Source: Cyclobacterium plantarum (GTDB taxonomy: Bacteria; Bacteroidota; Bacteroidia; Cytophagales; Cyclobacteriaceae). Taken from it: 64,000 bases of DNA. Made by a program: the position numbers and the translations under genes. The notes under the pieces are model-generated. The model was given only the letters and a program-made list of their open reading frames with translations, searched no databases and was not told the DNA's origin. Positions within the stretch are counted from its first letter, which is position 1. Every line of letters starts with the position of its first letter. The DNA lies in contig NZ_JAANYN010000003.1 in the NCBI RefSeq assembly GCF_011290685.1, forward strand, positions 62,001-126,000. The letters are read 5' to 3'. This document shows, one piece after another, positions 42,347 through 63,112 of the stretch.

Positions 42347-43807
42347 TCAGGAGAGGATTTCTTTGATCACATTTCCGTGCACATCGGTCAGCCTGAAGTT
42401 CCTGCCCTGGAATTCATAGGTCAATTGCTCATGGTCGAATCCCAGCCTTTCCAGAATGGTGGCTTGCAAGTCATGCACGTGGGTTCTCCCTTCAATACCG
42501 TAATAACCTATTTCATCAGTCTCTCCATGCACTTTTCCCTTTTTGATACCTGCTCCTGCCATCCACATGGTAAAGGCTTCCAGGTGGTGGTCTCTACCGT
42601 CAAAACCTACTCCTGTTCGCGCTTCCATCATAGGGGTACGCCCAAACTCTCCTCCCCAGACCACCAGGGTTTCTTCCAAAAGACCTCTTTGTTTCAGATC
42701 CTTTAGTAGGGCTGCAATGGGTTGATCAATGGCTTTGCAGGACCGGCGCATCCCATCTCCTACACCATTTCCGGCACCCACGCCATGGGTGTCCCAACGG
42801 TTATCAAACAATTGAATGAACCGCACGCCTTTTTCTACCAACCTTCTGGCCAGCAGGCAATTGTTGGCAAAGGAGGCTTTTCCCGGAGAAGTTCCATACA
42901 TCTGATGGATGTAGTCCGGCTCATCATTGATATTCATGGTTTCCGGTACAGAAGTCTGCATGCGGAATGCCAGTTCATATTGGGAAATCCGGGTGAGTAT
43001 TTCGGGATCCCCTGATTGTTGATACTCCATTTCATTGATCTTGTTGATGGCCGCTATGGATTTTTTCCGCAAAGGGGCATCTATGGAGTTTGGATTGGAT
43101 AAAAAAAGTACCGGATCGCCCTCCGAGCGACACTGTACACCCTGATAAACGGTAGGTAAAAAGCCAGATCCCCAGGCACTTTTTCCGGCACTGATGGCAC
43201 CACCACCGGAAGTCAATACCACATAGCCTGGCAAATCTTTATTTTCAGATCCCAAACCATAAACAGACCAGGCGCCGATGCTTGGTTTGCCAAGTCTTGG
43301 GCTACCGGTATGCATGAAAAGCTGTGCAGGGGCATGATTAAATTCATTGGTATGCATGGCCTTCAGCAAACTTACCTCATCCACCATTTGGGCAAATTCG
43401 GGCATGTAATCTGATACATAAGTTCCAGACTGTCCGTGTCTGTCAAAGTTAGCCTGAGGGCCAAGTAGTTTAGGAGTTCCTTTCAGGAAGGCAAATTCCT
43501 TCCCTTCCATGAGGGATTTGGGGGTATCTTTGCCATTCAGCTGCTGAAGGGTCGGTTTAAAGTCAAAAAGCTCCAGATGAGATGGCCCTCCCGCCATGTG
43601 CAGGAAGATGACACTTTTTGCTTTTGGGGCAAAATGGGGGCCTTTTCCTGCCAGGCCTGCTCCGGATTTAGCTCCGGGATGCTGTTCCCCGCATCCCATT
43701 ATGGATCCGAGGGCCAATGCACCCAGTCCAGATGTACATTTTTTTAAGAAATGTCTCCTGCTGTTGTATTGTGCCTTGCGGATAAAAGCTTCTTCCCAAA
43801 TGTTCAT
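42347..43807 (-). CDS. Tat-exported DUF1501 lipoprotein
   Basis: A 486-residue DUF1501 protein; the family belongs to the alkaline phosphatase/sulfatase-like superfamily, with unproven activity. A twin-arginine motif NSRRHFLKK precedes a hydrophobic stretch and a lipobox-like SIMGC, so export in folded form and lipid anchoring are likely. Family segments are SVIFLHMAGGPSHLELFD, HTNEFNHAPAQ, RFIQLFDNRWDTHG, WGGEFGRTPM and GRDHHLEAFTMW. It begins one base after the stop of the cytochrome-type gene, with which it forms a two-gene operon. Confidence 0.88.
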   Translation of the reverse strand: MNIWEEAFIRKAQYNSRRHFLKKCTSGLGALALGSIMGCGEQHPGAKSGAGLAGKGPHFAPKAKSVIFLHMAGGPSHLELFDFKPTLQQLNGKDTPKSLMEGKEFAFLKGTPKLLGPQANFDRHGQSGTYVSDYMPEFAQMVDEVSLLKAMHTNEFNHAPAQLFMHTGSPRLGKPSIGAWSVYGLGSENKDLPGYVVLTSGGGAISAGKSAWGSGFLPTVYQGVQCRSEGDPVLFLSNPNSIDAPLRKKSIAAINKINEMEYQQSGDPEILTRISQYELAFRMQTSVPETMNINDEPDYIHQMYGTSPGKASFANNCLLARRLVEKGVRFIQLFDNRWDTHGVGAGNGVGDGMRRSCKAIDQPIAALLKDLKQRGLLEETLVVWGGEFGRTPMMEARTGVGFDGRDHHLEAFTMWMAGAGIKKGKVHGETDEIGYYGIEGRTHVHDLQATILERLGFDHEQLTYEFQGRNFRLTDVHGNVIKEILS

Positions 43808-43808
43808 G

Positions 43809-46553
43809 TTATCTTCTGGTTATAAATTCATCTAAATTCAGCATGGCATTGCTCACCAAACGCATGGCGGCCAATTTTGGGTTTGCGTCCAGGTCTTTGC
43901 CTTCCTGCTCGTAATACGCCAAAGACTCCTGATAAAGCTGGTGTAAGACTTCCACCTTTTCCTGCTCAGGAGGTTTTGCTGTAACCAGCTGAAGGTTTTT
44001 TTCAATACCTGCTTTGATATCTTCCCCGCTTTCTTCCAAAATTCTCTTTGCCCAGGCACTGGCAGCCTCTACATATACAGGGTCATTCAATAAAACGAGG
44101 GATTGCAGCGGCGTGTTTGTCCTTACTCTTCTGGAGGTACATACTTCCCTGGATGGACTGTCGAAAGTCACCATGGAGGGGTAGGGATGTGTTCTTTTCC
44201 AATAGGTGTAAACTGCTCTCCGGTATTTGTCCTGGCCCTCGCTTTCAAACCAGAACCTTCCACCGAAACCGATGATATTTTCCGGTTGGTAAGGCATTAC
44301 GCTAGGGCCGTAAAGTTCCCTGTTCAGCAAACCGCTGATAGCCAGTGCCTGATCCCGAATGGTTTCCGCCGGGAGCCGGGTCCGGGATCCCCTGGAAAGG
44401 TATTTGTTGTAAGGGTCCTTGGCTAATTTTTCATCGCTGCTGACCGAACTCTGACGGTAACTTGCCGACATCACGATCATTTTGATAAGGGATTTCATGG
44501 ACCAGTTGTGGTCCTCTCTGAAGGTCACCGCCAACCAGTCCAGTAGCTCGGGATGGGTAGGAGCTATGCCCTGGCTGCCAAAATCTTCCATACTTTCCAC
44601 AATGCCGAATCCAAATAGCTGTTCCCAGATGCGGTTTACCATTACCCTTGCCGTTAATGGGTTTTCTTCACTCACCAGCCAGGCGGCAAAATCCATCCTG
44701 TCCGGGTTTGACTCGTTAATGCTGCCCATGATTTCGGGAATACCAGCCCGAACTTCCTTACCTTCGGACCTCCAATCTCCGCGCTCAAAGACATGGGTCT
44801 TCCTGGATTTATTTGCTGGCAAATCACGTAAGATTGGCGTTTGAACTGCTTTTACAGCCAATAGCTCATCCAATTTTTGTTGCAAGGCTTGAGGATACTG
44901 GTCTTTTGCGGGAGCCTTTTCATGGTAATACAGCCAATCCACCCTTACCAGATCCTGGGCAAAAATCCGGTCTTTTTTAAAATAGTAATAAACATCTCTT
45001 TTACCCTTTACAGGGGTAATGGGTATTTTTAACGTATTCCATTTTGCGGGACGGTTACCGGGGAAGCCCTGACCAGTTACCTGAAAAGTTCCTTCTCCAA
45101 TTTTGCTGCCCAGTATGGAATCCAGCCTTATTTCTACCCTGGCACCTGTAAGAGAGGCATAGCCCAGGGAAATGGCTTCCACCTCCGTCAGGTCTACCTG
45201 CTCAAACTTGATCCAGGAACTGTCCTGTACCTGCCATATCGAAGCCTGATCGTGGGCAACCAATTCGATGAAGCGGCTTTTGTCCTGAAACTCCTCTGCT
45301 TCCACCCTGCGGTGCCCCAGGGTATAAAGCAATTCCTGCTTTTGCTGATGCAGGAATTCATCAGAGACCTGGGCTAATTTATCTGCTGGTTCCAGCTGTT
45401 CATTTACCCAGGTAAGCAGCTTTTTGACCTTTTCCTTTTCGGCAGGTTCATAGGTAAAAACCTTGGGTTGTTCATTATAGAGGTCCTTGTCCTGCGTATT
45501 ATTAAAAAAGGCCATGGATTTATAAAAATCCTCATGCCGGATGGGATCATAAGGGTGGCTGTGGCATTGCACACAGGCCATGGTGGTGCCCTGCCAGACT
45601 TCAAAAGTAGTGCCCACTCTTTCCATAGTGGCAGCAACCCTGAATTCCTCATCATTGGTGCCCCCTTCATCATTGGCCATGGTATTTCTGTGAAAAGCAG
45701 TGGCAAGCAGGTCCTTTTCCCTGGCTTGGGGCAATAGGTCCCCGGCGATCTGAGCAATGGTAAAAGTATCGTAGGGCATGTCCTTGTTAAAAGCCTCAAT
45801 CAACCAGTCCCTGTATTTCCAAATTTCCCTGTGGAGGTCTTTTTCATATCCTTTGGAGTCCGCATACCTGGCCAGGTCCATCCAAAAGGAAGCCCATTTT
45901 TCACCGAAGTGGGGCGAATCGAGCAAACGGTCCACCGCAGTTTCATAGGCCTCGGGAGAGCTGTCATTTTTAAAAGCCTCATAGTCTTCTAGACTGGGAG
46001 GAATGCCGGTAACATCCAGGGCGAGTCTTCTCAGGAGGATTTCTTTGGAGGCTTCCGGATTGGGCGCAAGTTCCATTTCTTCCAGCTTGCCGAATATAAA
46101 ATGATCGATTCCATTCTTTGCTTCCATACCCTTTGGAATGGAGGGAGGGGTAATATCATCATCAGGAGGGATGTAGGCCCAGTGTTTTTCCCAGACCGCA
46201 CCCTGGTTGATCCATTTTTTAATCAGCTCTATTTCCTGATCGGACAAAGGTGCTTTACCCAGTGGCATGCGCATTTCCGGATCATGATGACTCAAGCGTT
46301 TTACCATCTCGGATGCGGAGGCGTCTCCCGGTACAATGGCCGGTTTACCGGATTCTGTGGGCATTTTTGCCTCAGATTCAAATAGCAATGAAAACCCTCC
46401 GGATTGCTTGACTCCACCGTGACAGGAGATGCACTTATTATTGACAATAGGACGTATGTCCCGGTTGTAACTTATCTTGTCGTCCTTTGGCCATGCCCAA
46501 TAAATGGCCAAGGCAAAAAGGGGTAATACAAATATCAGGTTCCGGTTCTTCAT
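43809..46553 (-). CDS. Cytochrome c-type DUF1549/DUF1553 (PSD1 family) protein
   Basis: A 914-residue exported protein. An N-terminal hydrophobic anchor (residues 5-21) leads to a planctomycete-type cytochrome c domain with haem motif CISCH (41-45) and candidate Met ligand in MRMPLGK. DUF1549 follows (about 140-340) with a second motif CVQCH (327-331), then a central carbohydrate-binding-like sandwich (about 430-560), and C-terminal DUF1553 (about 600-880) with VNRIWEQLFGFGIVES and RRVRTNTPLQSLVLLNDP. Function is not established; a redox enzyme on polysaccharide or its degradation products has been proposed. It is followed by the DUF1501 gene. Confidence 0.88.
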   Translation of the reverse strand: MKNRNLIFVLPLFALAIYWAWPKDDKISYNRDIRPIVNNKCISCHGGVKQSGGFSLLFESEAKMPTESGKPAIVPGDASASEMVKRLSHHDPEMRMPLGKAPLSDQEIELIKKWINQGAVWEKHWAYIPPDDDITPPSIPKGMEAKNGIDHFIFGKLEEMELAPNPEASKEILLRRLALDVTGIPPSLEDYEAFKNDSSPEAYETAVDRLLDSPHFGEKWASFWMDLARYADSKGYEKDLHREIWKYRDWLIEAFNKDMPYDTFTIAQIAGDLLPQAREKDLLATAFHRNTMANDEGGTNDEEFRVAATMERVGTTFEVWQGTTMACVQCHSHPYDPIRHEDFYKSMAFFNNTQDKDLYNEQPKVFTYEPAEKEKVKKLLTWVNEQLEPADKLAQVSDEFLHQQKQELLYTLGHRRVEAEEFQDKSRFIELVAHDQASIWQVQDSSWIKFEQVDLTEVEAISLGYASLTGARVEIRLDSILGSKIGEGTFQVTGQGFPGNRPAKWNTLKIPITPVKGKRDVYYYFKKDRIFAQDLVRVDWLYYHEKAPAKDQYPQALQQKLDELLAVKAVQTPILRDLPANKSRKTHVFERGDWRSEGKEVRAGIPEIMGSINESNPDRMDFAAWLVSEENPLTARVMVNRIWEQLFGFGIVESMEDFGSQGIAPTHPELLDWLAVTFREDHNWSMKSLIKMIVMSASYRQSSVSSDEKLAKDPYNKYLSRGSRTRLPAETIRDQALAISGLLNRELYGPSVMPYQPENIIGFGGRFWFESEGQDKYRRAVYTYWKRTHPYPSMVTFDSPSREVCTSRRVRTNTPLQSLVLLNDPVYVEAASAWAKRILEESGEDIKAGIEKNLQLVTAKPPEQEKVEVLHQLYQESLAYYEQEGKDLDANPKLAAMRLVSNAMLNLDEFITRR

Positions 46554-46938: not shown

Positions 46939-48213
46939 ATGAAACATAGAATAATGGCCATTATATGGCTGATAGCAGCTGTTTTGCTAATTACAATTCC
47001 GGGAGATGGATTGCTGGCTGCAGCACTTCAGGAACAGGCTGCAGAAAGCGAACCTTTCTGGTTATGGAAATTTTTGGGTCGATTGCATCCGCTGGCAGTT
47101 CACTTTCCGGTGAGTTTATTGTTGTTTGCGGCTGTTCTGGAACTATTTACGCTGAAAGATTTCAACCACAAGCTGAGGCCGGGTATTGATTTGCTGGTAT
47201 GGGCAGGGGTAGCCGGAGCGGTGCTTGCCGCTGTACTTGGCTGGGTCCTGGCTACAGTGGAGGATTATGGGGGCAATACCCTGGATGTACATCAGTGGAC
47301 AGGTATTACAACTGCATTCTTTGGTTTGTTGCTCATTTATTTTTTGAGAAAATCCGAAAACGGGAATAATCTGCAGGCAGTTAAGGCATTTCGTTCTCTG
47401 TTATTTATCTCAGCCATTGGGGTATCCGTGGCCGGTCACTTCGGTGCTTCTCTTACCCATGGGGAAGACTACCTTACCAGTACATTTCCCTGGAATGAGG
47501 ATGACTATTCCCCCGAAGATCTTAATATTGATTTGGTAGCTTTTGGAGAAGAAGGTGAGCTCAGTGAACAGAAGCAGGTGGAGCTGGTGGGAAAAGTAAG
47601 GGCTGTTTTTGCCCATAATTGTTACAAATGCCACAGTGATGCCAAGATCAAGGGAGAATTAAGGCTGGATGAGCGGGAATATGTTTTTGAAGGAGGGGAA
47701 TCCGGTCCTGTGATCGTTCCCGGAAATCCTGCTAAAAGCGACCTGGTAAGAAGGATCAAGCTGCCAAAGGACCATGAAGACGCCATGCCTTCCAAAGGTA
47801 AGGTGCTTTCAACCGATGAAATTGCCTTGATTTCTTTTTGGGTCGAAAGAGGTGCACCATGGCCAGATGCGGCCAGTGAGGTAAGTGAATACAGGGTAGC
47901 AGCACTGGAACCAAGAAGACCCAATGTACCCGCTCCAAGAAAAGGTATGAACCAGCCCATAGATATTTGGGTGGATGAATATTTTCAGGAACAGGACATT
48001 ACATGGAAAGATCCGGTAGATGATAAGACTTATCTGAGAAGAATATATCTGGATATCATCGGGTTGCTACCAGACCCGGAGACCTACAAGGCTTTTCTGG
48101 AAGATTCCCGACCAAATAAAAGGGCTGCCTGGGTAGAAGAATTGCTCAACCGAAATGACGATTACGCCACCCATTGGATGACCTTCTGGAATGATGCTTT
48201 AAGAAACGATTAA
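46939..48213 (+). CDS. 5' part of an interrupted cytochrome c DUF1549/DUF1553 protein (DUF2231 fusion)
   Basis: A 424-codon frame ending at an in-frame TAA. The N-terminal half is a DUF2231-type membrane module with four helices and conserved His residues (RLHPLAVHFP, VHQW, GHFG), expected to bind haem b. A periplasmic c-type domain with CYKCH (228-232) and the candidate Met ligand region AMPSKGKVLS follows, then the start of DUF1549 (RRIYLDIIGLLPDPETYKAFL). The frame stops at RND, where relatives continue with YTGTGYI. The rest of the gene continues in the same frame after the stop. If real, the product would lack most of DUF1549 and all of DUF1553. Confidence 0.8.
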   Translation: MKHRIMAIIWLIAAVLLITIPGDGLLAAALQEQAAESEPFWLWKFLGRLHPLAVHFPVSLLLFAAVLELFTLKDFNHKLRPGIDLLVWAGVAGAVLAAVLGWVLATVEDYGGNTLDVHQWTGITTAFFGLLLIYFLRKSENGNNLQAVKAFRSLLFISAIGVSVAGHFGASLTHGEDYLTSTFPWNEDDYSPEDLNIDLVAFGEEGELSEQKQVELVGKVRAVFAHNCYKCHSDAKIKGELRLDEREYVFEGGESGPVIVPGNPAKSDLVRRIKLPKDHEDAMPSKGKVLSTDEIALISFWVERGAPWPDAASEVSEYRVAALEPRRPNVPAPRKGMNQPIDIWVDEYFQEQDITWKDPVDDKTYLRRIYLDIIGLLPDPETYKAFLEDSRPNKRAAWVEELLNRNDDYATHWMTFWNDALRND

Positions 48214-49422
48214 ACCGGTACGGGATACATTACCAAGGGCAGGTACGCTATTACCGATTGGCTATATACCTCTTTGAGAGAAAACAAGCCTTATGACCAG
48301 TTTGTCAAACAACTGCTTGATCCTGATGAAAAGTCCAAAGGATTTATTGAAGGTATTCGCTGGCGGGGAGATGTGAATGCCAGCCAGGTTACGGAAATGC
48401 AGGCAGCGCAAAATGTGGGGCAGGTGATCCTTGGCCTGAACCTAAAATGTGCATCTTGCCATGACAGTTTTATCAGTGATTGGAAATTGGAAGAGGCCTA
48501 TGCCTTTGCCAATATATTTGCTGATACCACCCTTGAAGTAAGCCGCTGCGAAACCCCGATAGGAAAAAAGGCCAGCACAAAGATTTTATGGGAAGAATTG
48601 GGAGAAATTGACAGCACAGCAAGCAGGGACAAAAAACTGGAGCAACTGGCAGAATACCTCGTCCAACCTGCCAATGGCAGGATGTACAGGACTATTGTAA
48701 ACCGGATATGGAAGCAAATGATGGGCAGAGGTTTGGTGGAACCTGCTGATGAGATGGACAATTTACCCTGGAGCCAGGATTTACTGGATTGGATGGCTAC
48801 TGATTTTGAAGACAATGGTTATGATTTGAAAAACCTGATATACAAAATTGCCATATCAAAGGCTTACCAGCAACCTTCGATAGGTGTGGAAGATCCACAG
48901 TACCTGACAGATGATGATTTTGTATTCGAAGGAGTGGTGAGAAGGAGATTGACGGCTGAGCAATTTGCCGATGGTGTGAGTCAAAATATCCATCCGCTTT
49001 TTGAGATGGAGGCATTGAAATACAATCCCAATGAGTTGGCAGTATCGGAAGAGTCATCTATGCCTTTTGCCAGGGCATCACTGGTAGCCAATAATGACTT
49101 CCTGAAAGCACTGGGCCGACCAAACCGTGAGGTAGTATCGACCAGCAGGGACAGCCAGGCCAGCTTGCTACAAGCCCTGGAGCTTACCAACGGAGAAACC
49201 CTGAATGAGGCCTTAAAAGATGGTGCCATGAAGTGGAAAGAGAAATACAATGATGGTGACATTATTGTGCATGAAACCTATCGCCAACTTCTGGGAAGAG
49301 ACCCCCATCAAAATGAATTCAATGTGGCCATGGAGGTTTTGGGAGAAGATCCCGAGCCCGCAGCCATTCAGGATTTATTTTGGGCAGTTTTGTTGTTGCC
49401 TGAATTTCAATTAATTTACTGA
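48214..49422 (+). pseudogene. 3' part of the interrupted cytochrome c DUF1549/DUF1553 gene
   Basis: The same reading frame resumes directly after the TAA at 48211-48213 with TGTGYITKGRYAITDWLY, then LRENKPYDQFVKQLL, a haem motif CASCH (from 48448) and DUF1553 (VNRIWKQMMGRGLVEP, then VVSTSRDSQASLLQALELTNG). Only one base separates TAA from a Tyr codon, the residue expected there. It has no start of its own in a suitable place; the TTG at 48274 is an internal Leu. The 3' part is otherwise intact, so the lesion is recent, a sequencing error, or read through. The DUF1501 gene follows after 16 bp. Confidence 0.75.
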
Positions 49423-49438
49423 TCAAAAGCAATTAGCG

Positions 49439-50866
49439 ATGAATTATAACTGGAAAAGAAGGGATTTTCTAAAAAAAACAAGTGCAGCGAGCATAGCAGC
49501 CATGGCGGCAGGCATGCCCATGTCGGGCTTGCTTTCTTCATGTTCCACAAAGGAGAAAATAGAAAGTTCCGCTGATACGGTAATCCTGCTTTACATGGCG
49601 GGGGGCATGGCCCATACAGAGACTTTCGACCCAAAGAAATATACGCCATTCCGTAAAGGAATGGAATCGAAGGAGGTATTGAGTACCTTTCCATCCTTTC
49701 CTACAGCCCTAGATGGTATTGAATTTTCAGAAGGTTTGGAAAATATCGGGCAGATAATGGATCGGGGTACACTTATCCGATCCTATGTGGCTGCAGATTT
49801 GGGGCATATCCTGCATACCCGTCACCAATATCATTGGCACACTTGTTATGAACCGCCCCAATCAGTGGCCGTTCCGCATATGGGATCCTGGATGGCCAAG
49901 GAACTTGGCCCTGTTAATCCCGTTATTCCCCCCTTTATCAATATCGGACAAAGGTTTACTGTGGGTGAAGGAGAAGAGTTAAAGGCTTTCCACAGTGCGG
50001 GATTTTTAGGCAGTGAATATGGCCCTTTTCTGATACCCGACCCCACTTCCGGGCTGGATAGTGTGAGGCCGCCTGTGGGCATGTCCAATAAACGGTTTGA
50101 AGCCAGAAACCAATTGTATGAGCGCCTGGTTCAGGAAAGTGCCATGGGTGAGTTTGGCTCTGATTACCAAAAGGAATCGCTGAAGAGATCCATGGAGCAA
50201 GCCTACAGACTATTGAACTCCCCTGAGGCAAAAGCCTTTGACCTCAGCCAGGAGCCCAAAGAGAAATACGATATCTACAATACAGGTAAGTTTGGACTAG
50301 GTTGTCTGATGGCCAAAAGGCTGGTGGATCAGGGAGCACGTTTTATTAGTGTAACTTCAGAATATGAACCCTTTGTAGGCTGGGATACCCATGAGAATGG
50401 ACATACCCGCCTGGTGGACATGAAAAAATTGATTGATGCCCCCATAGCCCAGCTGATCAAGGACCTGGATGAAAGTGGCCGTCTGGACCGTACCATGGTC
50501 ATTGTGGCCAGTGAATTTAGCCGGGACATGCTTACAGAGGGCAGACCCGGAGCAAAGGTAAAGGACCAGGTGGTGGTACCCGATATTATCGATGACATGA
50601 AAAATTATGGCATGCACAGGCATTTTACGGACGGTTGTTCTGTATTGATGTTTGGTGGAGGCGTCAAAAGGGGACATGTGTATGGAAAGACAGCAGATGA
50701 GCGGCCATGTAAGAGCATTGAGAAACCCATAAAAATTGCTGCTTTGCACCAGACCATTTATCATGCACTGGGCATAGACCCTGAAACCAATTACGAGATT
50801 GAAAAGAGACCTTTCTATACCACTCCGGATGGAGAGGGAGAGGCAGAAATGGATTTACTGGCTTAA
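49439..50866 (+). CDS. Tat-exported DUF1501 lipoprotein
   Basis: A 475-residue DUF1501 protein, second copy in the window. WKRRDFLKK is the twin-arginine motif, followed by a hydrophobic stretch and lipobox LLSSC. Family segments are VILLYMAGGMAHTETFDP, RTRHQYHWH-type block (here HTRHQYHWHT), VTSEYEPFVGWDTHENGH, VASEFSRDM and HRHFTDGCSVLMFGGGVKRG. It differs clearly from the copy at 42347 and so is an old duplication. It lies 16 bp after the cytochrome-type gene, mirroring the arrangement of the left arm. Confidence 0.87.
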   Translation: MNYNWKRRDFLKKTSAASIAAMAAGMPMSGLLSSCSTKEKIESSADTVILLYMAGGMAHTETFDPKKYTPFRKGMESKEVLSTFPSFPTALDGIEFSEGLENIGQIMDRGTLIRSYVAADLGHILHTRHQYHWHTCYEPPQSVAVPHMGSWMAKELGPVNPVIPPFINIGQRFTVGEGEELKAFHSAGFLGSEYGPFLIPDPTSGLDSVRPPVGMSNKRFEARNQLYERLVQESAMGEFGSDYQKESLKRSMEQAYRLLNSPEAKAFDLSQEPKEKYDIYNTGKFGLGCLMAKRLVDQGARFISVTSEYEPFVGWDTHENGHTRLVDMKKLIDAPIAQLIKDLDESGRLDRTMVIVASEFSRDMLTEGRPGAKVKDQVVVPDIIDDMKNYGMHRHFTDGCSVLMFGGGVKRGHVYGKTADERPCKSIEKPIKIAALHQTIYHALGIDPETNYEIEKRPFYTTPDGEGEAEMDLLA

Positions 50867-50875
50867 TTTAAAAAA

Positions 50876-51943
50876 ATGAAAAACAACTTAAACCCAAGAA
50901 GGGAATTTATCAGGAAAACCGGACTTACTGTATTGGCAGGTGCGGTGGTTCCCAATATCATCATCAACAAATCCTACGCCATGAAGAAAGAAACTATATT
51001 GGGACACGGATCTCACCGGTACCGGGTCATTGAAGGTTGGGGAAACCTGGACCCTTCCAAAAACCCCGTTAATGATTGCCACGAAATGGTTGAAGACGCA
51101 AAGGGCCGATTGATTTTGCTGACCAACGAAACCAAAAACAATGTCATCATTTATGACAAGTCCGGTAAATTACTTGAAACCTGGGGGACCAGTTACCCCG
51201 GTGCCCATGGCCTGACCATCAGTGATGAGGGAGGGGAGGAGTTTTTGTACATTGCCGACAATACCCGTAGTCAGGTTATCAAAACCGATCTGAAAGGGAA
51301 TGAAATCATGGTGCTGGATTATCCCAAGGAAACCGGGAATTACGACTATCCCCGGCAGTTTGTGCCTACCGAAACGGCCATCAACCCGGCCAATGGAGAC
51401 ATTTACATCGTCGACGGTTATGGAAGGAATTACGTCACGCAGTATGATGCCAAAGGGAAACTGATCCGGCAATTTGGTGGTTCCGGGGAAACAGACGAAA
51501 CATTCAACTGCTGTCATGGTATTCTGGTGGATACCCGAGACAAAGCCAATCCCACCTTGCTGATTACAGACCGGGGTCATATGCAGTACAAAAGGTTTAC
51601 CCTTGACGGCAAATACATCAAAACCATACCCATGCCAGGCTCATTTGTCTGCAGGCCTGTTTTGAGAGGGCAAAATGTCTATGCCGCTGTATACCGCAGC
51701 ACATCCCAATCCTACCCCAACTCCGGTTACATCACCGTATTGGATACCAATGACCAGGTAGTGTCGACACCCGGAGGAACGGCTCCTGAATATGTGAACG
51801 GAAAACTACAGGAGCAGCGAAAAGATCTGAGTTTCCAGGGCTTTATGCATCCACATGACGTTTGTGTGGACCGTGACGAAAACATTTACGTGCCTCAGTG
51901 GGCTTCTCAAAAAACCTATCCGGTGAAGTTGGAGCGGGTTTAA
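50876..51943 (+). CDS. Tat-exported NHL-type beta-propeller protein
   Basis: A 355-residue protein with the twin-arginine motif NPRREFIRKTG and a hydrophobic stretch ending near KSYA, then a six-bladed NHL-like propeller: repeats with GRLILLTNETKNNVIIYDKSGKLLETWG, GDIYIVDGYGRNYVTQYDAKGKLIRQFGG, and MHPHDVCVDRDENIYVPQW, shown by the D-G-x-I-Y/V pattern. NHL propellers bind ligands or act as lyase/amidating domains. It starts 9 bp after the DUF1501 gene and is probably co-transcribed. No catalytic assignment is possible. Confidence 0.83.
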   Translation: MKNNLNPRREFIRKTGLTVLAGAVVPNIIINKSYAMKKETILGHGSHRYRVIEGWGNLDPSKNPVNDCHEMVEDAKGRLILLTNETKNNVIIYDKSGKLLETWGTSYPGAHGLTISDEGGEEFLYIADNTRSQVIKTDLKGNEIMVLDYPKETGNYDYPRQFVPTETAINPANGDIYIVDGYGRNYVTQYDAKGKLIRQFGGSGETDETFNCCHGILVDTRDKANPTLLITDRGHMQYKRFTLDGKYIKTIPMPGSFVCRPVLRGQNVYAAVYRSTSQSYPNSGYITVLDTNDQVVSTPGGTAPEYVNGKLQEQRKDLSFQGFMHPHDVCVDRDENIYVPQWASQKTYPVKLERV

Positions 51944-51964
51944 TCATTATTGATAAATCGATTT

Positions 51965-52627
51965 ATGGGGAATAATTTTTCGTATCATCAAAAATCCAGA
52001 TCGGAAGTAGATTTTAATAAGCAGGAACCTGATTTAAGCCATGAAAATATTTGGGTGGCTTTTTTAAGTGGTAGCAATAAGGCCCTTGCTGATCTGTATA
52101 AATTGTACAGCAATAAACTTTTTGTTTATGGCAGACAGTTTACTCATTGTAATGAACAAATTTATGATACGATTCAAGACGTTTTCTTTTACCTGACAGA
52201 ATCCCGTGAAAAGCTGTCAATGGCAAGATCCGTCAAACTTTATTTGTTCTCTGTCTTTAGGAGGATGTTATTAAAATCCATTGAAAAAGAACGACTGCTG
52301 GTTTCGGGAAATGCCTCGGAAATAGAAGGATTTCAAATTATTGTAGATGAGGCATTTTTCCCCGTGCATGCGCAATTGGACAACAGGCAAAGAAAAAGGA
52401 TTGAAGTCGCCTGTAACCAATTACCTGCAAGGCAGAGGGAGATGTTGATATTGCGGTTTTTTGAAGGGATGAGTTACGAGGAAATTGCGGATATCATGGG
52501 GCTTGCCAATTCAAAAACGGTAAGAACCATGTTATACCGCTCTTATCATAAATTGTCAGAGATTTTAGCTCCCCATAAGCATGAATTGAGTGCTTTGGCA
52601 GCTGTTTTTAACACCTTCCAATACTAA
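51965..52627 (+). CDS. ECF RNA polymerase sigma-70 factor
   Basis: A 220-residue sigma factor of the Bacteroidota FecI/SusC-operon type. Region 2 is recognisable in LADLYKLYSNKLFVYGRQF and DTIQDVFFYLTESREKL, and region 4 in LPARQREMLILRFFEGMSYEEIADIMGLAN followed by KTVRTMLYRSYHKL, shown as the D-F/R-Q-R-M and EIAxxMG patterns. ATG at 51965 is preferred over TTG at 51950. It lies 21 bp after the propeller gene, so it may share the transcript of the cytochrome/DUF1501 operon while acting on the downstream SusC operon. Confidence 0.88.
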   Translation: MGNNFSYHQKSRSEVDFNKQEPDLSHENIWVAFLSGSNKALADLYKLYSNKLFVYGRQFTHCNEQIYDTIQDVFFYLTESREKLSMARSVKLYLFSVFRRMLLKSIEKERLLVSGNASEIEGFQIIVDEAFFPVHAQLDNRQRKRIEVACNQLPARQREMLILRFFEGMSYEEIADIMGLANSKTVRTMLYRSYHKLSEILAPHKHELSALAAVFNTFQY

Positions 52628-52706
52628 CAGTGAGTTTTTTTCAATTGGTTTTGCCCACACTTATTTTTTAGTAGTCTGGTTAAAAGATTCCATAAGTTCT
52701 ATTCCT

Positions 52707-52747
52707 AAATAAGCCGCGCATAATTTTATGCAGTGGCTTTATTTTTT
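52707..52747 (+). terminator. Rho-independent terminator after the sigma gene
   Basis: AAGCC (52711-52715) pairs with GGCTT, enclosing the inner palindrome GCATAA-TT-TTATGC, followed by TATTTTTT. It separates the sigma gene from the FecR operon. Confidence 0.7.
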
Positions 52748-52756
52748 GGGTTTTTT

Positions 52757-52806
52757 GGCAAATTTAAATTGTTTGCCCTCGAGCAATTTACCTTTTGGTA
52801 ATTTGG
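52757..52806. promoter_or_regulatory. Two adjacent inverted repeats upstream of fecR
   Basis: GGCAAA (52757-52762) with TTTGCC (52772-52777), and a second imperfect palindrome centred on ACCTTTTGGT (52783-52806, 8 of 10 pairs). They lie between the sigma-gene terminator and the FecR start, and could be operator or promoter elements. Function is inferred from position only. Confidence 0.4.
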
Positions 52807-52918
52807 CTTATAGTGATGAGCAGCAATAATTAATTTGAAAAAAAATTATTTTTTTAGTGGTTGTTTGCCTTTTGATAGTCACTTTAGTTGTAGTGACGAT
52901 AGACCTTATTCCGCAAAC

Positions 52919-53974
52919 ATGAAATTTGATCCAAAATCCGAGGCGGATTTTTTCGAGAACGAATATTTTATCCATTGGGTAATTTTCCCTGATAAGGAAT
53001 CTTCCCGCTATTGGAAAAATTGGCGAAGCATGCACCCTGAGAAGCGGGCATTGATGGACAGGGCGGTGGAAACCCTTAAATCTTTTAGACTGAAAGTGGA
53101 CACCAGCATGGATAATACCATTTCCGAAATCCTATTGGACAGGATCCTTATCCATCACCAAAATCAGAAAGGGAAGCCTTTCCGGCCCGAAAAACCCAAG
53201 GCATATATTAAGGTTAAGGACCGGACAATATGGGTTTTGGTTGCGGCCTGTCTGGCAGTTATAGTCACCTTCATATTACCCCATTTAGGACTCGAATTTA
53301 TGGAAAATAGGGTCAAGGAGGACCCGGTGCAATGGATTACCAAATCCACCAAACCTGGAATTAAATCCATTTTTTACCTTCCCGACGGAAGTATGGTGAA
53401 ACTAAATTCATCAAGTGAAATTACTTTTCCGGAAAGCTTTTCTGATTCTGTGCGACTGGTTAAACTCTCTGGACAGGGATATTTTGATGTGCAGCGGGAT
53501 GAGGACTTGCCATTTATTGTCCAGGCTGAGGGTTTTCAGGTTCAAGTGCTTGGAACCTCCTTTGATATAAAATCCTATTCCAGAAATGAGGAGCATAATG
53601 TGGTGGTACTCACAGGAGAGGTAGCTGTTGAAACAGAGTTTGGCGACTATTTAAACGTACTTCCTACAGAAATGCTTCGCTTTAATGAGACTGATGGAAA
53701 AATTTTGAAAAAGAAGGTGGATCTCGAAAGGTATACCGGATGGAAGGACGGAATCATCATTTTTCAGGAAACTCCATATCAAGAAGTGTTTGAGATTTTG
53801 AGTGAATGGTATGGGGTGGAATTTTATTTAAGCAACGAAATAAACTGGAAAGGTACTTATAGTGGAAAGTATGAAAATGAATCGTTGAAAAATATCCTTC
53901 TGGGTATTTCTTATGCCAAAAATTTTGAATTCAAACTGAACCGAAAAAAAGTAAATATCTATAAACCCAAATGA
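52919..53974 (+). CDS. FecR-type anti-sigma regulator
   Basis: A 351-residue membrane protein: cytoplasmic N-terminal region (1-100), one membrane helix (about 103-121), periplasmic FecR domain (about 145-245; GIKSIFYLPDGSMVKLNSSSEITFPE and VKLSGQGYFDVQRD, shown as the LPDGS-V-LN-S pattern) and C-terminal DUF4974/STN-like domain. It relays substrate binding by the SusC STN domain to the ECF sigma. The ATG at 52919 is chosen over TTG at 52835. Its stop overlaps a small ORF. Confidence 0.9.
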   Translation: MKFDPKSEADFFENEYFIHWVIFPDKESSRYWKNWRSMHPEKRALMDRAVETLKSFRLKVDTSMDNTISEILLDRILIHHQNQKGKPFRPEKPKAYIKVKDRTIWVLVAACLAVIVTFILPHLGLEFMENRVKEDPVQWITKSTKPGIKSIFYLPDGSMVKLNSSSEITFPESFSDSVRLVKLSGQGYFDVQRDEDLPFIVQAEGFQVQVLGTSFDIKSYSRNEEHNVVVLTGEVAVETEFGDYLNVLPTEMLRFNETDGKILKKKVDLERYTGWKDGIIIFQETPYQEVFEILSEWYGVEFYLSNEINWKGTYSGKYENESLKNILLGISYAKNFEFKLNRKKVNIYKPK

Positions 53975-54084
53975 CTATGAAAAAGACCAAAGTTAACCAG
54001 ATTATTAAGTTCACAAAGCATCAGTTCCGATTACTGGGATGGTGTTTTCTATTTGTTAGTAAACCCATAAATGTGAAATTATGA
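53971..54084 (+). CDS. Short coupled ORF before susC
   Basis: A 37-codon frame starts at ATGA overlapping the fecR stop and ends with ATGA overlapping the SusC start at 54081. It encodes a basic then hydrophobic peptide (MTMKKTKVNQIIKFTKHQF then RLLGWCFLFVSKPINVKL), similar to the extended N-termini seen on many STN-containing SusC proteins. It could be a leader peptide for translational coupling, or the relic of an older SusC N-terminus. Confidence 0.4.
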   Translation: MTMKKTKVNQIIKFTKHQFRLLGWCFLFVSKPINVKL

Positions 54085-57000
54085 AAAAATTTGTACTCAC
54101 CTATTTGAAATTCCTTTTGGTATTTGGTACCCTTATTTTTTCAGGGTCAGATCTGGGTGCCGAACAATATGCTTTCAGAGGAGATGCTGGCCAGGTCAAT
54201 TTGAATGTGATGGAGACCAGGATTTCTATCCGGGCAGAGGCTGCACCAGTGCTGAAAGTCTTAAGGGAAATTGGTGCACAATCCGATGTATTCTTCGCAT
54301 TTGAAGATCAACTGGCTGAGCAGATTCGTCCTTTGAATATTGATGTAAAGGATCAGAAACTCCAGTTTGTTTTAGAGGAATTATCGGCAAAATATGGGCT
54401 GAAATTCAAACAGGTAAACAAAACCATCCATGTTGCCATAGCCAATAATTTAAAGGATCAAAAACAAAAAATTGGAGGATTGCGGGAAAAAACCATTACG
54501 GGTAAAGTTGTCGCGGATGATGGAGAAGGTATCCCCGGTGCTAATATTCGCATTAAAGATACGACCATTGGCACAGTTACGGACCTGGAGGGCAACTATT
54601 CCATTACAGTTCCCAATGAAGAAGCTGTGTTAATCTTTTCTTTTATCGGTTTTGTTACCCAGGAAGAAGTAGTTGGCAACCGCAGCGTGATCAACATCAA
54701 CCTATCTACAGATTTATCCTCCCTGGATGAGGTAGTAGTGGTTGGATTTGGCACCCAGAAAAAAGAAAGTATCGTTGGTGCCATGACCTCTATTAATCCT
54801 TCCGAATTGAGGATCCCTTCCAGTAACTTAACTACCTCCTTGGCTGGAAGAATTGCCGGTTTGGTTTCTTATCAAACAAGTGGTGAACCTGGGGCCGACA
54901 ATGCGCAATTTTTTGTTCGGGGCGTTGCTTCTTTTAACGGTCAAAATGGCCCCTTAATTTTGATTGACGGCGTGGAACTTACTACAGACGACCTGGCAAG
55001 GCTTCAACCTGATGATATTGAAAGCTTTGCTGTCCTGAAAGATCCTACAACCACTGCTATTTATGGTGCCAGGGGGGCTAATGGGATAATTTTGGTGACC
55101 ACCAAAACAGGAAAAGAGGGACCTGCAGTGGTCAACTTAAGAATAGAGAGTTCCCTCAGCCAGCCCATTGGTCTGGTAGATCTGGCAGATCCGGTGACCC
55201 ACATGAGGTTACAGAATGAAGCCAACCGAACCAGGGGGGATTTTGCCACTTTTACGGAAGAACAGATCGCAGGAACCCTAAGGGGAGGAAATCCCAATAT
55301 TTATCCTGCTACCGATTGGTACAAACAATTATTCAGGGATTATGCCAACACTTCCCGGGTAAATTTAAATGTCAGAGGCGGTGGCCAAAAGGTGAGGTAT
55401 TATGTAGCAGGGTCATTTAATAAGGACAACGGCTTATTGCAGGTGAACAAAACCAATAATTTCACCAATGGCATTGATTTAAAACGGTACTTATTAAGGT
55501 CCAATATCAATATTGATTTGCATAAAAATACGGAAATGATCGTCCGGTTACATTCCACCATAGATGATTACCGAGGTCCCCTACAGGGAGGAAATGCAAT
55601 TTATAATGCGGCCGTTCGTACCAGCCCGACTCGTTTTCCCGCCATTTATGAGCCGGATCCTACACTGGAAGGTGTACCTCATATCTTATTTGGAAATGGG
55701 CTGCCCCCTAGGGGTGAAGGAACGGCGAGCGGAGGAGATGATAGCACGGTCCCGGTTTGGTTTAACCCTTATGCAGAACTTCAACGGGGTTATCGGGATA
55801 CCAGGCGACAATTATCTTTGGTTCAGTTTGAAATGAAACAGAATCTTAGCGGAATAATTCCAGGTCTGACAGCCCGGTTGCTTGCCAATTCCAATACTAC
55901 TTCTTATTTCGAAAACCGTAGGGGATATACGCCATTCTTTTACAGAATGTCTACTTTTGACCCTTTTACAGAAGATTATCGTCTGGTAAGGACTGCTCAG
56001 GGTTCGGGAGATGAGTCTCTTTCGCTATTGGGTGGGCAGCGTACAAACAATTCCGTGTTTTATATGGAATCTGCCGTCAATTATAACCAAACTTTTGATA
56101 AGCATACAGTGGGAGGCCTTCTCGTTTTTGTGGCCAGAGAATACCTGGACGGTAATGCTAATACGGTGCAGCTCTCATTGCCCAGTAGAAATCTTGGCGT
56201 TTCCGGACGGTACAATTATGATTATGATAACCGGTATTTCGCAGAATTTAATTTCGGTTACAATGGTTCGGAGCGCTTTGCCAAAAACAACCGATTTGGC
56301 TTCTTCCCGTCTTTTGGTCTGGCTTGGCTGCTTTCCAATGAACCCTTCCTGAGTGGATTATCCCCAAGAGTTAGCCGGGTAAAACTTAGGGCCTCCTTTG
56401 GATGGGTCGGAAATGACCGTATAGGCGATGACCGGAATGACCGCTTTTTTTACCTATCAGAGGTAGACCTGAGCAGTAATCAGAACCAAGCTACTTTCGG
56501 AAGAGAACTGAATACTACCTTCCCGGGAGTAATCATCAGAAGATATGCCAACCCAATGGTGACCTGGGAAAAATCCAGAAAAGCCAACCTGGGTCTGGAA
56601 CTTAACTTTTTAGATGATGCAATCCAATTCAGGGTGGATGCTTTCAATGAAATTCGAACCAGTATATTACAAGAACGGGCTGACATTCCTTCTACGCTGG
56701 GATTACAAGCCAATCTGAAGACCAATGTGGGAGAGGTTACCGCCAAAGGCATTGATGCCTCCCTGGATGTAAACCATTATATCAACAACAATTTTTGGAT
56801 AACGGGAAGGGGTACCTTTACTTATGCTGACAATGAATTCCGTGTGTATGAAGAACCCAATTATGCCGCCGTCGGTGCTCCATGGAGGTCCAATGTCGGC
56901 AACAATGTGACCGTCTCGCAGGGCTATATAGCAGAACGGCTTTTTGTGGATGATGAAGAGGCAATGAATTCTCCGGCACAGTTTGGATCTCCTGGAATTG

Positions 57001-57641
57001 ACTATGGCGGCGGTGATATAAAGTACAAAGACCTCAATGGCGACGGAGTGATTACCACACTTGATCAGGCTCCTATTGGTAAACCCCAAATACCCAGGGT
57101 CATTTATGGACTTGGGCTTTCGGCGGGGTACAAAAGGTTTGATATTAACTTCTTTTTTCAGGGATTGAGCGATGTTTCATTTTTTATCAATCCGGTTACC
57201 ACCGGTCCATTTGTCAATTCCATTCAAGATGCAGGAATTAATGCCGTTACCGATGGGAGCGGGAATGGATTTGGCAATGGTATCTTAAGCGAAAATGGCA
57301 TGCTTCAGGCTTATGCTGATAGCCATTGGTCGGAAGAAAACCGGGATATCTACGCATTGTGGCCCAGGTTGTCATCAAACGTGGTTCCCAATAACACGGT
57401 GAGAAGTACCTGGTGGTTACGGGATGGCTCCTTTTTAAGGCTTAAACAAGTGGAGGTAGGCTATAATTTGTTGAAAAATCCTGAAAATAAAATTGGCTTG
57501 ACCAATCTTCGGCTTTATGCCACCGGGACCAATCTTTTTACCTGGAGTAAGTTTGACCTATGGGATCCGGAGTTGGGCGGCAATGGGCTGAATTATCCCT
57601 TGCAGAGGGTAATTAACTTGGGGATTCATATCGGATTTTAA
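54081..57641 (+). CDS. SusC/RagA-type TonB-dependent outer-membrane transporter with STN domain
   Basis: A 1186-residue transporter. Signal peptide to about residue 28, STN domain (about 45-115; VLREIGAQSDVFFAFEDQL, LEELSAKYGLKF), a carboxypeptidase-regulatory-like domain (about 135-210; ITGKVVADDGEGIPGANIRIK), the TonB-box-like region DEVVVVGFGTQKKE, a plug (IDGVELTTDDLARLQPDDIESFAVLKDPTTTAIYGARGANGIILVTTK, pattern only) and a 22-strand barrel. The C-terminus ends GIHIGF, as expected. With SusD it imports an unknown ligand, and the STN signals to FecR. Confidence 0.95.
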   Translation: MKKFVLTYLKFLLVFGTLIFSGSDLGAEQYAFRGDAGQVNLNVMETRISIRAEAAPVLKVLREIGAQSDVFFAFEDQLAEQIRPLNIDVKDQKLQFVLEELSAKYGLKFKQVNKTIHVAIANNLKDQKQKIGGLREKTITGKVVADDGEGIPGANIRIKDTTIGTVTDLEGNYSITVPNEEAVLIFSFIGFVTQEEVVGNRSVININLSTDLSSLDEVVVVGFGTQKKESIVGAMTSINPSELRIPSSNLTTSLAGRIAGLVSYQTSGEPGADNAQFFVRGVASFNGQNGPLILIDGVELTTDDLARLQPDDIESFAVLKDPTTTAIYGARGANGIILVTTKTGKEGPAVVNLRIESSLSQPIGLVDLADPVTHMRLQNEANRTRGDFATFTEEQIAGTLRGGNPNIYPATDWYKQLFRDYANTSRVNLNVRGGGQKVRYYVAGSFNKDNGLLQVNKTNNFTNGIDLKRYLLRSNINIDLHKNTEMIVRLHSTIDDYRGPLQGGNAIYNAAVRTSPTRFPAIYEPDPTLEGVPHILFGNGLPPRGEGTASGGDDSTVPVWFNPYAELQRGYRDTRRQLSLVQFEMKQNLSGIIPGLTARLLANSNTTSYFENRRGYTPFFYRMSTFDPFTEDYRLVRTAQGSGDESLSLLGGQRTNNSVFYMESAVNYNQTFDKHTVGGLLVFVAREYLDGNANTVQLSLPSRNLGVSGRYNYDYDNRYFAEFNFGYNGSERFAKNNRFGFFPSFGLAWLLSNEPFLSGLSPRVSRVKLRASFGWVGNDRIGDDRNDRFFYLSEVDLSSNQNQATFGRELNTTFPGVIIRRYANPMVTWEKSRKANLGLELNFLDDAIQFRVDAFNEIRTSILQERADIPSTLGLQANLKTNVGEVTAKGIDASLDVNHYINNNFWITGRGTFTYADNEFRVYEEPNYAAVGAPWRSNVGNNVTVSQGYIAERLFVDDEEAMNSPAQFGSPGIDYGGGDIKYKDLNGDGVITTLDQAPIGKPQIPRVIYGLGLSAGYKRFDINFFFQGLSDVSFFINPVTTGPFVNSIQDAGINAVTDGSGNGFGNGILSENGMLQAYADSHWSEENRDIYALWPRLSSNVVPNNTVRSTWWLRDGSFLRLKQVEVGYNLLKNPENKIGLTNLRLYATGTNLFTWSKFDLWDPELGGNGLNYPLQRVINLGIHIGF

Positions 57642-57652
57642 AGAAAGAAATT

Positions 57653-59557
57653 ATGAAGATTAAATTGATAAAATTTATTGTAAGTCTGAGCCTGGTTTTT
57701 TCAATGGGTTCCTGTGGCGATTTTATAGATGTGGTTCCTGATAACATTGCTGTGATCGAAGGGGCCTTTGAAACCCGGGAAAGTGCCTTGAGGTTTTTAG
57801 CGACTCTTTACAATTACCTGCCTCCTTATTCCAGTATAAATAATCCTGCCTTGGCCGCAGGTGATGAAATATCTGTGAATGATAATGTGTCCAGGAACTG
57901 GCAATCGAGAATTATTTCCAGAGGAGGGCAAAATGTCACCTCTCCAAGTCTGGGCTATTGGGGAAACACCGGAACGGTAAGTAACATGTTTATCGCATTG
58001 AGAGACTGTAATATTTTTCTGGATAATGTGGACAGACCATTTAACCTCACCGAGACGGAGAAGGTAAAATGGATCGCGGAAGCCAAATTTTTAAAGGCTT
58101 ATTTTCATTTTTACCTGATGAGGATGTACGGTCCTATTCCCATTATCCGTGAAAATATCGAAGTCAGCAGTGGAGTGGAAGCTGTAAGGGTAAGAAGAAA
58201 TTCCGTGGATGAAGTAACCGATTATATTGTGGAATTATTAGATGAAGCCATTCCGGATTTGCCTTTGATCATTGAGGATAGAGGACTTGAATTAGGAAGG
58301 ATAACTGCCCCAGCAGCAGCTGCGATTAAGGCGAAAGTTTTGGTGACATCTGCCAGCCCACTTTTCAATGGCAATTCAGATTATAGTAACTTTCTTGACC
58401 ATGAGGGAAATAACTTTATCAGTACCACTTTTGATGAAACCAAATGGGTGAGGGCTGCAGAGGCCTGCAAGGAAGCCATCGATCTAGCCCATGAAGCTGG
58501 GCATTTACTTTATCGTTTTGAAGGTGCACCATCAGATTGGTCTGATACCACAGTTGTAAAACTCAGTGTGCGCGGTAGTGTCACCGAAAGGTGGAATGAT
58601 GAATTGATCTGGGGCAGTTCCGACAGCCCGGCTGGTGGAGAACTTCAAAGTTGGGCCCAGGCAAAAATAGCACCTGGCCTTACAGCAGAAAACCGGGAAA
58701 GCACCCAATCCTGGTGGTCACCACCCCTACAGATTGCCGAAATGTTTTACTCTGAAAATGGAGTGCCCATCGATGAAGATGTGAGTTACAATTATGCAGA
58801 TCGCTATGAAGTAGCTGAGGCGGGTATTGCTCATAAACATTACGTTCAACCTGGGTTCAATACCGCCCGGTTGAATTTGAACCGGGAAATAAGGTTTTAT
58901 GCTTCCCTGGGTTTTGACGGCGGTGTTTGGTTTGGCCATGGGGTAAACAGTGATGATAATGCATTGATTGTGGAAGGAAAAAGAGGAGAGAAAGCCGGAA
59001 GGTTGGATGCCAACAGATGGTCCCAAAGTGGATACTGGGCAAAAAAGCTGGTATACTACGAAAATGTTCAAGCCACTTCCGGATCAGGCTACACCAGCCG
59101 GGCTTACCCCTTTCCTATTGTTCGGTTGGCGGACTTATACCTGATGTATGCCGAAGCCCTCAACGAATCCTCAGGCCCGTCCAGCGCCTACGAATGGATT
59201 GACCTGGTAAGAGAAAGGGCAGGATTGCAAGGAGTACTGCAGTCCTGGAGTGAATTTTCCAATCAGCCGTCAAAACCCACCACTCAAGAAGGTTTTAGAG
59301 AAATCCTGCAGAATGAAAGGATGATCGAATTGGTTTTTGAAGGGCAAAGGTTTTGGGACCTTAGGCGCTGGAAAAGAGCTGCCGAGTTTTTAAACCGCGA
59401 CATACAGGCCTGGAATGTAGAGGGTGAAACCACTGCTTCTTACTATAATGTAATCAATGTTGGAACTTATAAATTCTTGAATAGAGATTACCTATGGCCT
59501 ATTGCAGAAGAAGATCTTATTGCCAATTCCAATCTCGTACAAAATCCTGGTTGGTGA
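57653..59557 (+). CDS. SusD/RagB-type surface lipoprotein
   Basis: A 634-residue SusD-family protein with lipoprotein signal (lipid Cys 21 in MGSCGD). Typical segments are AKFLKAYFHFYLMRMYGPIP in TPR-like helices, the C-terminal RLADLYLMYAEALNE, GFREILQNERMIELVFEGQRFWDLRRWKRA, and the final WPIAEEDLIANSNLVQNPGW. It captures ligand on the cell surface for the SusC pore. It lies 11 bp after susC and is in the same operon. Confidence 0.93.
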   Translation: MKIKLIKFIVSLSLVFSMGSCGDFIDVVPDNIAVIEGAFETRESALRFLATLYNYLPPYSSINNPALAAGDEISVNDNVSRNWQSRIISRGGQNVTSPSLGYWGNTGTVSNMFIALRDCNIFLDNVDRPFNLTETEKVKWIAEAKFLKAYFHFYLMRMYGPIPIIRENIEVSSGVEAVRVRRNSVDEVTDYIVELLDEAIPDLPLIIEDRGLELGRITAPAAAAIKAKVLVTSASPLFNGNSDYSNFLDHEGNNFISTTFDETKWVRAAEACKEAIDLAHEAGHLLYRFEGAPSDWSDTTVVKLSVRGSVTERWNDELIWGSSDSPAGGELQSWAQAKIAPGLTAENRESTQSWWSPPLQIAEMFYSENGVPIDEDVSYNYADRYEVAEAGIAHKHYVQPGFNTARLNLNREIRFYASLGFDGGVWFGHGVNSDDNALIVEGKRGEKAGRLDANRWSQSGYWAKKLVYYENVQATSGSGYTSRAYPFPIVRLADLYLMYAEALNESSGPSSAYEWIDLVRERAGLQGVLQSWSEFSNQPSKPTTQEGFREILQNERMIELVFEGQRFWDLRRWKRAAEFLNRDIQAWNVEGETTASYYNVINVGTYKFLNRDYLWPIAEEDLIANSNLVQNPGW

Positions 59558-59579
59558 GCTACATATAAAATAAGGAACT

Positions 59580-60794: not shown

Positions 60795-60796
60795 AC

Positions 60797-62452: not shown

Positions 62453-62719
62453 TCATTTAATCAATTTCAATCCTTCCAGGGCTGATTTATCGTCAGGATT
62501 GTTCATCAGTACCTTTTGAAAAAGTACTGACGCCTCTCTTGTCTTCTGAAGATTTAATTTGTTCCAGGCCAGAAGAATCAAACCATCGTAATCAAAGGGG
62601 TATAGATTGACTACTTTTTCTAAGTATGGATCGGCTTTGTCATAGATACCCTGATTGTAATAAATCAGCCCCAACCTGTAGTTAACCAGGGAATTTTGAG
62701 GATCCGATTGCAGGATTTT
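62453..62719 (-). pseudogene. 3' part of an interrupted exported TPR protein gene
   Basis: The same frame as the 5' part resumes directly after a TAG at 62720-62722: KILQSDPQNSLVNYRLGLIYYNQG, then DPYLEKVVNLYPFDYDGLILL and a final TPR ending GLKLIK. In TPR repeats the position of the TAG is usually Glu, Lys or Gln, each one base away. It has no own start except a chance GTG/ATG at 62674. Confidence 0.65.
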
Positions 62720-63112
62720 CTAATATATCCCTATGATCTGATTCCAGTCTCCCTGCATGGATAAGGGTAAAACCAAACCCAATTTTGGTTCAATGGCATA
62801 AGGCTTCAAGTTGACTGCTTTTTGGTAATAATTCACGGATTCTTCGAGCTGCCCTGCCTGGAATTGGAGCCAACCCAGTCTCAAATTGATCTCATAGCCG
62901 TCTGATTGGTAGATAGCTTGTAACGCTTCTGCCGCTGCCTTGTAATTCCCAGTTTTTTCAAGCGCATAACTTTGCTTGAAAGCATTGATGACATTATCCT
63001 GCGCATGCACTTGTAAAGATAGCAAAAGCATAAAAGCCAGTAAGTAGCTTTTGATTAAGGGCCTTGAAGCTGCCAGGACGCCTTTCTTGCGGGGGAACGT
63101 TAGAATCTCCAT
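62720..63112 (-). CDS. 5' part of an interrupted exported TPR protein
   Basis: A 130-codon frame with signal peptide (RKKGVLAASRPLIKSYLLAFMLLLSLQVHAQ, cleaved near residue 38) and two to three TPR units (YALEKTGNYKAAAEALQAIYQ, LRLGWLQFQAGQLEESVNYYQKAVNLKP). It ends at an in-frame TAG (62720-62722) within a TPR helix. The ATG at 63112 overlaps the stop of the upstream barrel gene by 13 bp, indicating coupling. With the 3' part the gene would give about 219 residues. Confidence 0.75.
   Translation of the reverse strand: MEILTFPRKKGVLAASRPLIKSYLLAFMLLLSLQVHAQDNVINAFKQSYALEKTGNYKAAAEALQAIYQSDGYEINLRLGWLQFQAGQLEESVNYYQKAVNLKPYAIEPKLGLVLPLSMQGDWNQIIGIY

Follow-up and report, generated by a model that had tools for sequence, protein, structure and literature searches.

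The window, a stretch of 64,000 nucleotides from Cyclobacterium plantarum that sits on a contig 579 kb long in a genome of 6.17 Mb and 37 contigs, harbors a cluster of planctomycete-type cytochrome genes arranged in two arms (Table 1). The gene under study, hereafter the focus gene, stands back to back with the PSCyt1-PSCyt2-PSD1 gene of the left arm and heads the right arm, where DUF1501 and NHL-repeat genes follow it; an earlier note on this DNA had called it the core of that arm. The defining feature of the focus gene is a TAA triplet that lies in frame at codon 425 of the frame 46939-49422 (827 residues). The same note had described family sequence on both sides of this stop and an otherwise intact gene, and both descriptions hold: the residues R-N-D precede the TAA and T-G-T-G-Y-I-T-K-G-R follow it, the protein aligns with that of the sister genome in one piece over residues 1-827 at 99% identity, and the DNA match to the sister that spans the gene extends for 5,006 nt without a gap. 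The frame carries this single in-frame stop and is otherwise collinear with the sister. Each half of PSCyt2/DUF1549 exceeds the Pfam cut-off alone, but the two are separated by the stop such that no whole PSCyt2 domain is present in one protein; in the sister genome the domain is uninterrupted. A search with NCBIfam profiles returned nothing above the cut-offs.

Table 1. Features of the focus gene and its neighbors, in window coordinates.
Feature	Coordinates	Strand	Remarks
ORF up to and including the stop	46939..48213	+	424 aa; the product if termination is ordinary
DUF2231 predicted membrane domain	47083..47457	+	residues 49-173; 28.5 bits, cut-off 26.4
PSCyt1 (planctomycete cytochrome c) domain	47620..47790	+	residues 228-284; 52.2 bits, cut-off 22
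First CxxCH motif (CYKCH)	47620-47634	+	within PSCyt1
PSCyt2/DUF1549, first part	47956..48207	+	profile positions 1-83; 79.8 bits, cut-off 29.8
In-frame TAA, codon 425	48211..48213	+	Tyr or Phe in all 92 distinct relatives that reach it
Same-frame continuation	48214..49422	+	402 aa, ordinary gene end
PSCyt2/DUF1549, remainder	48235..48528	+	profile positions 96-207; 78.9 bits, cut-off 29.8
Second CxxCH motif (CASCH)	48448-48462	+	in the PSCyt2 part after the stop
PSD1/DUF1553 domain	48643..49338	+	138.3 bits, cut-off 28.5; behind the stop
DUF1501 gene, right arm	49439..50866	+	directly downstream of the focus gene; 253.7 bits, cut-off 27
NHL-repeat / 6-bladed propeller gene	50876..51943	+	last in the right arm; context
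PSCyt1-PSCyt2-CBM6-PSD1 gene, left arm	43809..46553	-	stop-free; divergent to the focus gene
DUF1501 gene, left arm	42347..43807	-	stop-free

Protein family and predicted structure

The focus protein resembles planctomycete-type cytochrome proteins in its PSCyt1 (PF07635), PSCyt2/DUF1549 (PF07583) and PSD1/DUF1553 (PF07587) domains, all above the Pfam cut-offs, and the locus resembles those of such proteins in the DUF1501 (PF07394) gene located directly downstream. The protein is distinguished by an added N-terminal DUF2231 membrane part and, in this strain, by the cut that the stop introduces. Its PSCyt2 domain also represents a divergent branch, with scores of 165-173 bits for the orthologues in the 12 genus genomes compared with 241-313 bits for other whole-profile matches. 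The CxxCH motifs suggest haem binding and a redox role for the focus protein; residues C228, C231 and H232 of the first are invariant in a 44-row alignment and conserved at 90% or more in a second alignment, and C504, A505, S506, C507 and H508 of the second are invariant across the 44 rows. The available text of one source puts forward a function of the family as a suggestion (PMC5615132), and that of another suggests a redox role for planctomycete-type cytochromes (PMC2754498). The accessible portions of the literature on DUF1549/DUF1553, on PSCyt1/PSD1/DUF1501 and on PSCyt2 yielded no study that tests function.

Structural models were obtained for the uncut protein of the sister, both at its full 827 residues (mean pLDDT 80.9) and for the last 628 residues (84.7). 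Long helices are predicted at residues 41-174, corresponding to the DUF2231 region. Neither model gave a Foldseek match in the PDB at E <= 0.001, and the structural similarities described here come from a second look that re-ranked Foldseek's own list. For the 827-residue model this list is composed mostly of helical bundles over residues 43-183, with a designed protein as the best row (8tn1, Z 13.5), and includes one cytochrome, FoxE (5mab; Z 9.8, rmsd 3.4, 104 aligned residues, 20% identity), which covers residues 188-309. For the 628-residue model, hydrazine synthase ranks first (5c2v; Z 6.1, rmsd 3.8, 104 aligned residues), matched over the cytochrome part, and further rows are weak, with many phycobilisome entries among them at Z 2.6-4.2. 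The cytochrome rows of both models agree with the PSCyt1 assignment. A FoxE-like cytochrome fold predicted for the PSCyt1 part is in keeping with a redox role, and we extend no claim to DUF1549 or DUF1553. The loop adjacent to residue 425, at residues 427-433, has a pLDDT below 50, and the model is therefore no guide to the role of that residue. A sequence search of the PDB produced one hit, which was ignored at E 0.71. Phycobilisome linker domains also recur for the last 156 residues (48952-49419, the end of PSD1) with Z scores of 2.8-4.0, under the noise level.

Codon 425 among relatives and the age of the stop

Relatives of the focus gene were collected at 110 loci, 108 of which gave a tblastn hit. 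After seven own-genome paralogues were dropped (five below 38% identity and two without a hit) and duplicate loci were collapsed on the basis of the last 300 residues matched, 94 sequences were retained, comprising the window gene with its TAA, one own-genome locus that falls short of the site and 92 relatives, most of them from a collection search in which the best 80 of 156 were kept. Tyrosine, which the earlier note had expected in relatives at the position of the stop, is encoded at the site by 88 of these 92 distinct relatives (52 and 36 with its two codons) and phenylalanine by the other four, with a stop in none (collection search: best 80 of 156). Codon 425 lies in one of the most strongly conserved stretches of the gene: across 44 aligned relatives there is no variation at H412, W413, F416, W417, N418, D419, L421, R422, N423, D424, G427 or G429, and almost none at Y425.

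The full-length relative that the earlier note wanted sought was found in the sister, whose protein aligns over all 827 residues at 99% identity. Each of 12 Cyclobacterium genomes holds one focus-gene orthologue (E <= 1e-100), and the other 11 are stop-free; across the same 12 genomes the focus gene is the only one of 145 PSCyt2 matches with an internal stop. The nearest public record found was a Cyclobacterium MAG, with a protein 99% identical and DNA 94.7% identical over 23 pieces summing to 121 kb. One candidate for a second case, G016/L028, was rejected since its flagged TAA lies at query position 28, ahead of the conserved part, and the site itself holds a Tyr codon. The stop is thus confined to one lineage among open relatives, the pattern of a young pseudogene (0 of 92, collection search limited to the best 80 of 156).

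We assessed the age of the stop by polarising the differences between window and sister with a 90%-identical relative as outgroup, setting aside the sites that differ in all three sequences (6 after the stop and 8 before). After the stop, the window branch carries 16 silent and no amino-acid changes and the sister branch 13 and 2, so the relaxed constraint expected of a long-dead pseudogene is absent. Absence of constraint along the entire branch would have led us to expect 35-57 amino-acid changes in this region, the figure varying with transition bias, and the unconstrained share of the window branch has a 95% upper bound of 2.4-5.7% (kappa 1-8), a bound that uses a background ratio of 0.03 of our own choosing. 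The 4-fold sites of the focus gene show 14 transitions and 18 transversions, and low values of transition bias therefore fit best. The complete lack of amino-acid changes beside 16 silent ones indicates that the stop is very young, that it is an error or that the gene is still translated. Before the stop, the window branch has 5 silent and 3 amino-acid changes compared with 10 and 1 on the sister branch, a weak hint of relaxation that is not significant (Fisher p 0.26). On the same window branch the DUF1501 gene has 32 silent and 5 amino-acid changes and the NHL gene 30 and 3, and the small number of amino-acid changes in these genes implies that the right arm has had little time to decay.

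Origin of the stop

The earlier note had listed a one-base nonsense mutation, a read error and programmed readthrough as causes of the stop; the first emerges as the best supported, with no stop in 92 relatives (best 80 of 156 in the collection search) and only silent changes after the TAA, and the last is disfavored. We consider the TAA most likely to be a nonsense mutation of recent date, at the level of the strain, in a gene of which each of the 11 other Cyclobacterium genomes searched has one open copy. The weights given here to mutation and to sequencing error are a matter of judgement and were not computed. A mutation is in line with genuine decay elsewhere in the genome, where a TPR gene has a TAG and a frameshift-like neighbor and a sulfatase match contains a TGA, and with the finding that TAA functions as a terminator in other genes and that the 37 tRNAs found include no suppressor anticodon. 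It has to be weighed against three points, namely that a wrong base in the consensus would give an identical pattern, that a gene still being translated would also show constraint after the stop, and that the ratio of amino-acid to silent changes before the stop differs from that of the sister only at the p 0.26 given above. According to the available text of Belinky et al. (2021, PMC7918605), in-frame stops are a widespread feature of bacterial genes under constraint and mostly live on the time scale of polymorphisms. The focus gene resembles the cases in that text in having one nonsense codon in a gene under purifying selection on such a time scale. It differs from them in that its stop occurs in one genome only, whereas the published cases were restricted to stops common to two or more genomes because a substantial fraction of raw cases was expected to be artefacts (PMC7918605, as far as its available text goes).

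The possibility of an artefact, a single wrong consensus base with the gene itself intact in the living strain, is one that we regard as unlikely here. A lone substitution in an otherwise intact and constrained gene does have the look of an error, and this is the only clearly interior stop among the 92 genes compared with the sister's contig. Arguing the other way, the site has no homopolymer run, the assembly figures are good (6.17 Mb, 37 contigs, completeness 100, contamination 0.54) and only 2 of 146 own-genome matches in four families searched contain stops (the focus gene and the sulfatase), so the genome is not littered with them. Substitution errors are rare in a deep short-read consensus, and the platform used here may differ. 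Were the stop an error, the focus gene should be annotated as whole.

An error-ridden genome was rejected, as far as tested, by comparisons of ORFs with the sister and with a second relative, G004, which covered 400 kb of the 579-kb contig and one contig per relative. Four of the 92 sister ORFs compared with the window contig met a stop, three of them at residues 5-14 and one, the focus gene, in the interior. The 93 ORFs of G004 gave eight cases with a stop and one frameshift-like split; two of the eight are clearly interior (the focus gene and the TPR gene), five lie within residues 7-18 and one is at residue 33 of 150. We take these last six for ORFs whose listed starts lie too far upstream, since in each the G004 frame has a methionine 2 to 19 residues past the last stop. 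In the reverse direction, 4 of 95 ORFs met a stop in the sister (residues 4, 7 and 8, and 51 of 167, where the sister's own ORF matches from residue 56 on) and 2 of 94 in G004 (residue 14, and 138 of 144).

A further explanation for the constraint after the stop is that the stop is tolerated, with low-level, unprogrammed readthrough supplying a reduced dose of full-length protein, so that the TAA would for a time curb a conserved membrane cytochrome instead of knocking it out. The absence of amino-acid changes after the TAA, beside 16 silent ones, agrees with such leakage, and short-term dosage effects of in-frame stops have been proposed for bacteria (PMC7918605, in its available text). We nevertheless judge it very improbable, as youth alone yields the same constraint, TAA is the commonest terminator and ends proteins at the ends of their sister counterparts, and no suppressor anticodon is present among the tRNAs found. 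If true, a leaky TAA would be a natural case of dosage control by a stop codon in Bacteroidota.

Programmed, family-wide readthrough or reassignment of the codon is almost certainly not at work at codon 425. It has only the open frame past the stop in its favor, and it would call for conservation of the stop among orthologues, whereas all 11 of the other genus genomes are open, only 1 of 145 PSCyt2 matches in the genus has a stop, and none of the 92 distinct relatives does (collection search, best 80 of 156). Nor was a stimulating RNA structure found, as the 126 nt from 48205 have a folding z of -0.07, with an equal or better fold in 93 of 200 shuffles. TAA is used in the ordinary manner and closes 47 of 94 orthologous ORFs, among them the interrupted focus gene. 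Of the remaining 46, 45 stop no more than one residue away from the end of the sister's protein; codon reassignment was rejected on these counts. As to a suppressor tRNA, none of the anticodons TTA, CTA and TCA occurs among the 37 tRNAs found, a list that is incomplete, given that scoring covered only 150 of the 346 first-look candidates and that none of the 37 is labelled isoleucine. The focus gene gives no indication of a novel decoding mechanism.

On the preferred reading of a recent nonsense mutation, ribosomes would terminate normally at the TAA after residue 424, leaving a remnant of 424 residues in which the DUF2231 membrane part and the first haem-binding motif are kept and DUF1549 is reduced to a stub. 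The truncated protein would lose the second CxxCH motif and PSD1, and the remnant is most likely non-functional. A restart downstream of the stop would give a product that lacks the membrane and export part. Haem of the c type is attached in the periplasm, which the motif of such a product would be expected to miss because this part is absent. No close spare copy is indicated, as scoring of 16 own-genome candidates gave no second match that reaches E 1e-100. Should the stop be real, nature has provided in this strain a knock-out of a gene kept open by the 11 other Cyclobacterium genomes searched, and comparison of the strain with the intact sister could reveal the role of the right arm.

Flanking DNA and a second broken gene

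Silent divergence from the sister rises along the right arm (46939-51940), from 0.07 in the first half of the focus gene to 0.13 in its second half, 0.20 in DUF1501 and 0.24 in the NHL gene, a gradient that might reflect a recombination tract with its end near 51943, the point at which the sister ceases to match. The stretch that follows (51950-62011), located between the right arm and a 7.3-kb block, contains sigma factor and FecR genes, a TonB/SusC-like receptor (named by eye), a SusD gene and two more ORFs, and contigs G011:C68 and G004:C19 have no match to it. The block itself, at contig C31 124193-131530 (window 62193 to past the window end), is 95.9% identical to G004 compared with 82-83% for the cluster DNA beside it, and is unmatched at the same place on the sister's contig save for 222 nt and the last 106 nt; from these identities it was possibly exchanged between species.

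A TPR-like gene, named by eye, occupies 62456-63235 on the minus strand and carries an in-frame TAG at 62720-62722, residue 172 of 260. It is open in G004 (97% identical) and in G001 (95%), and compared with G004 it shows 7 silent and 3 amino-acid differences before the TAG and 20 and 3 after it. The gene after it (contig 126434-128616), by eye a membrane protein with a peptidase-like end, has a frameshifted look in the window's genome, and elsewhere in the same genome the sulfatase at G000:C22:702733-703757 is matched in two pieces, one of which has a TGA inside.
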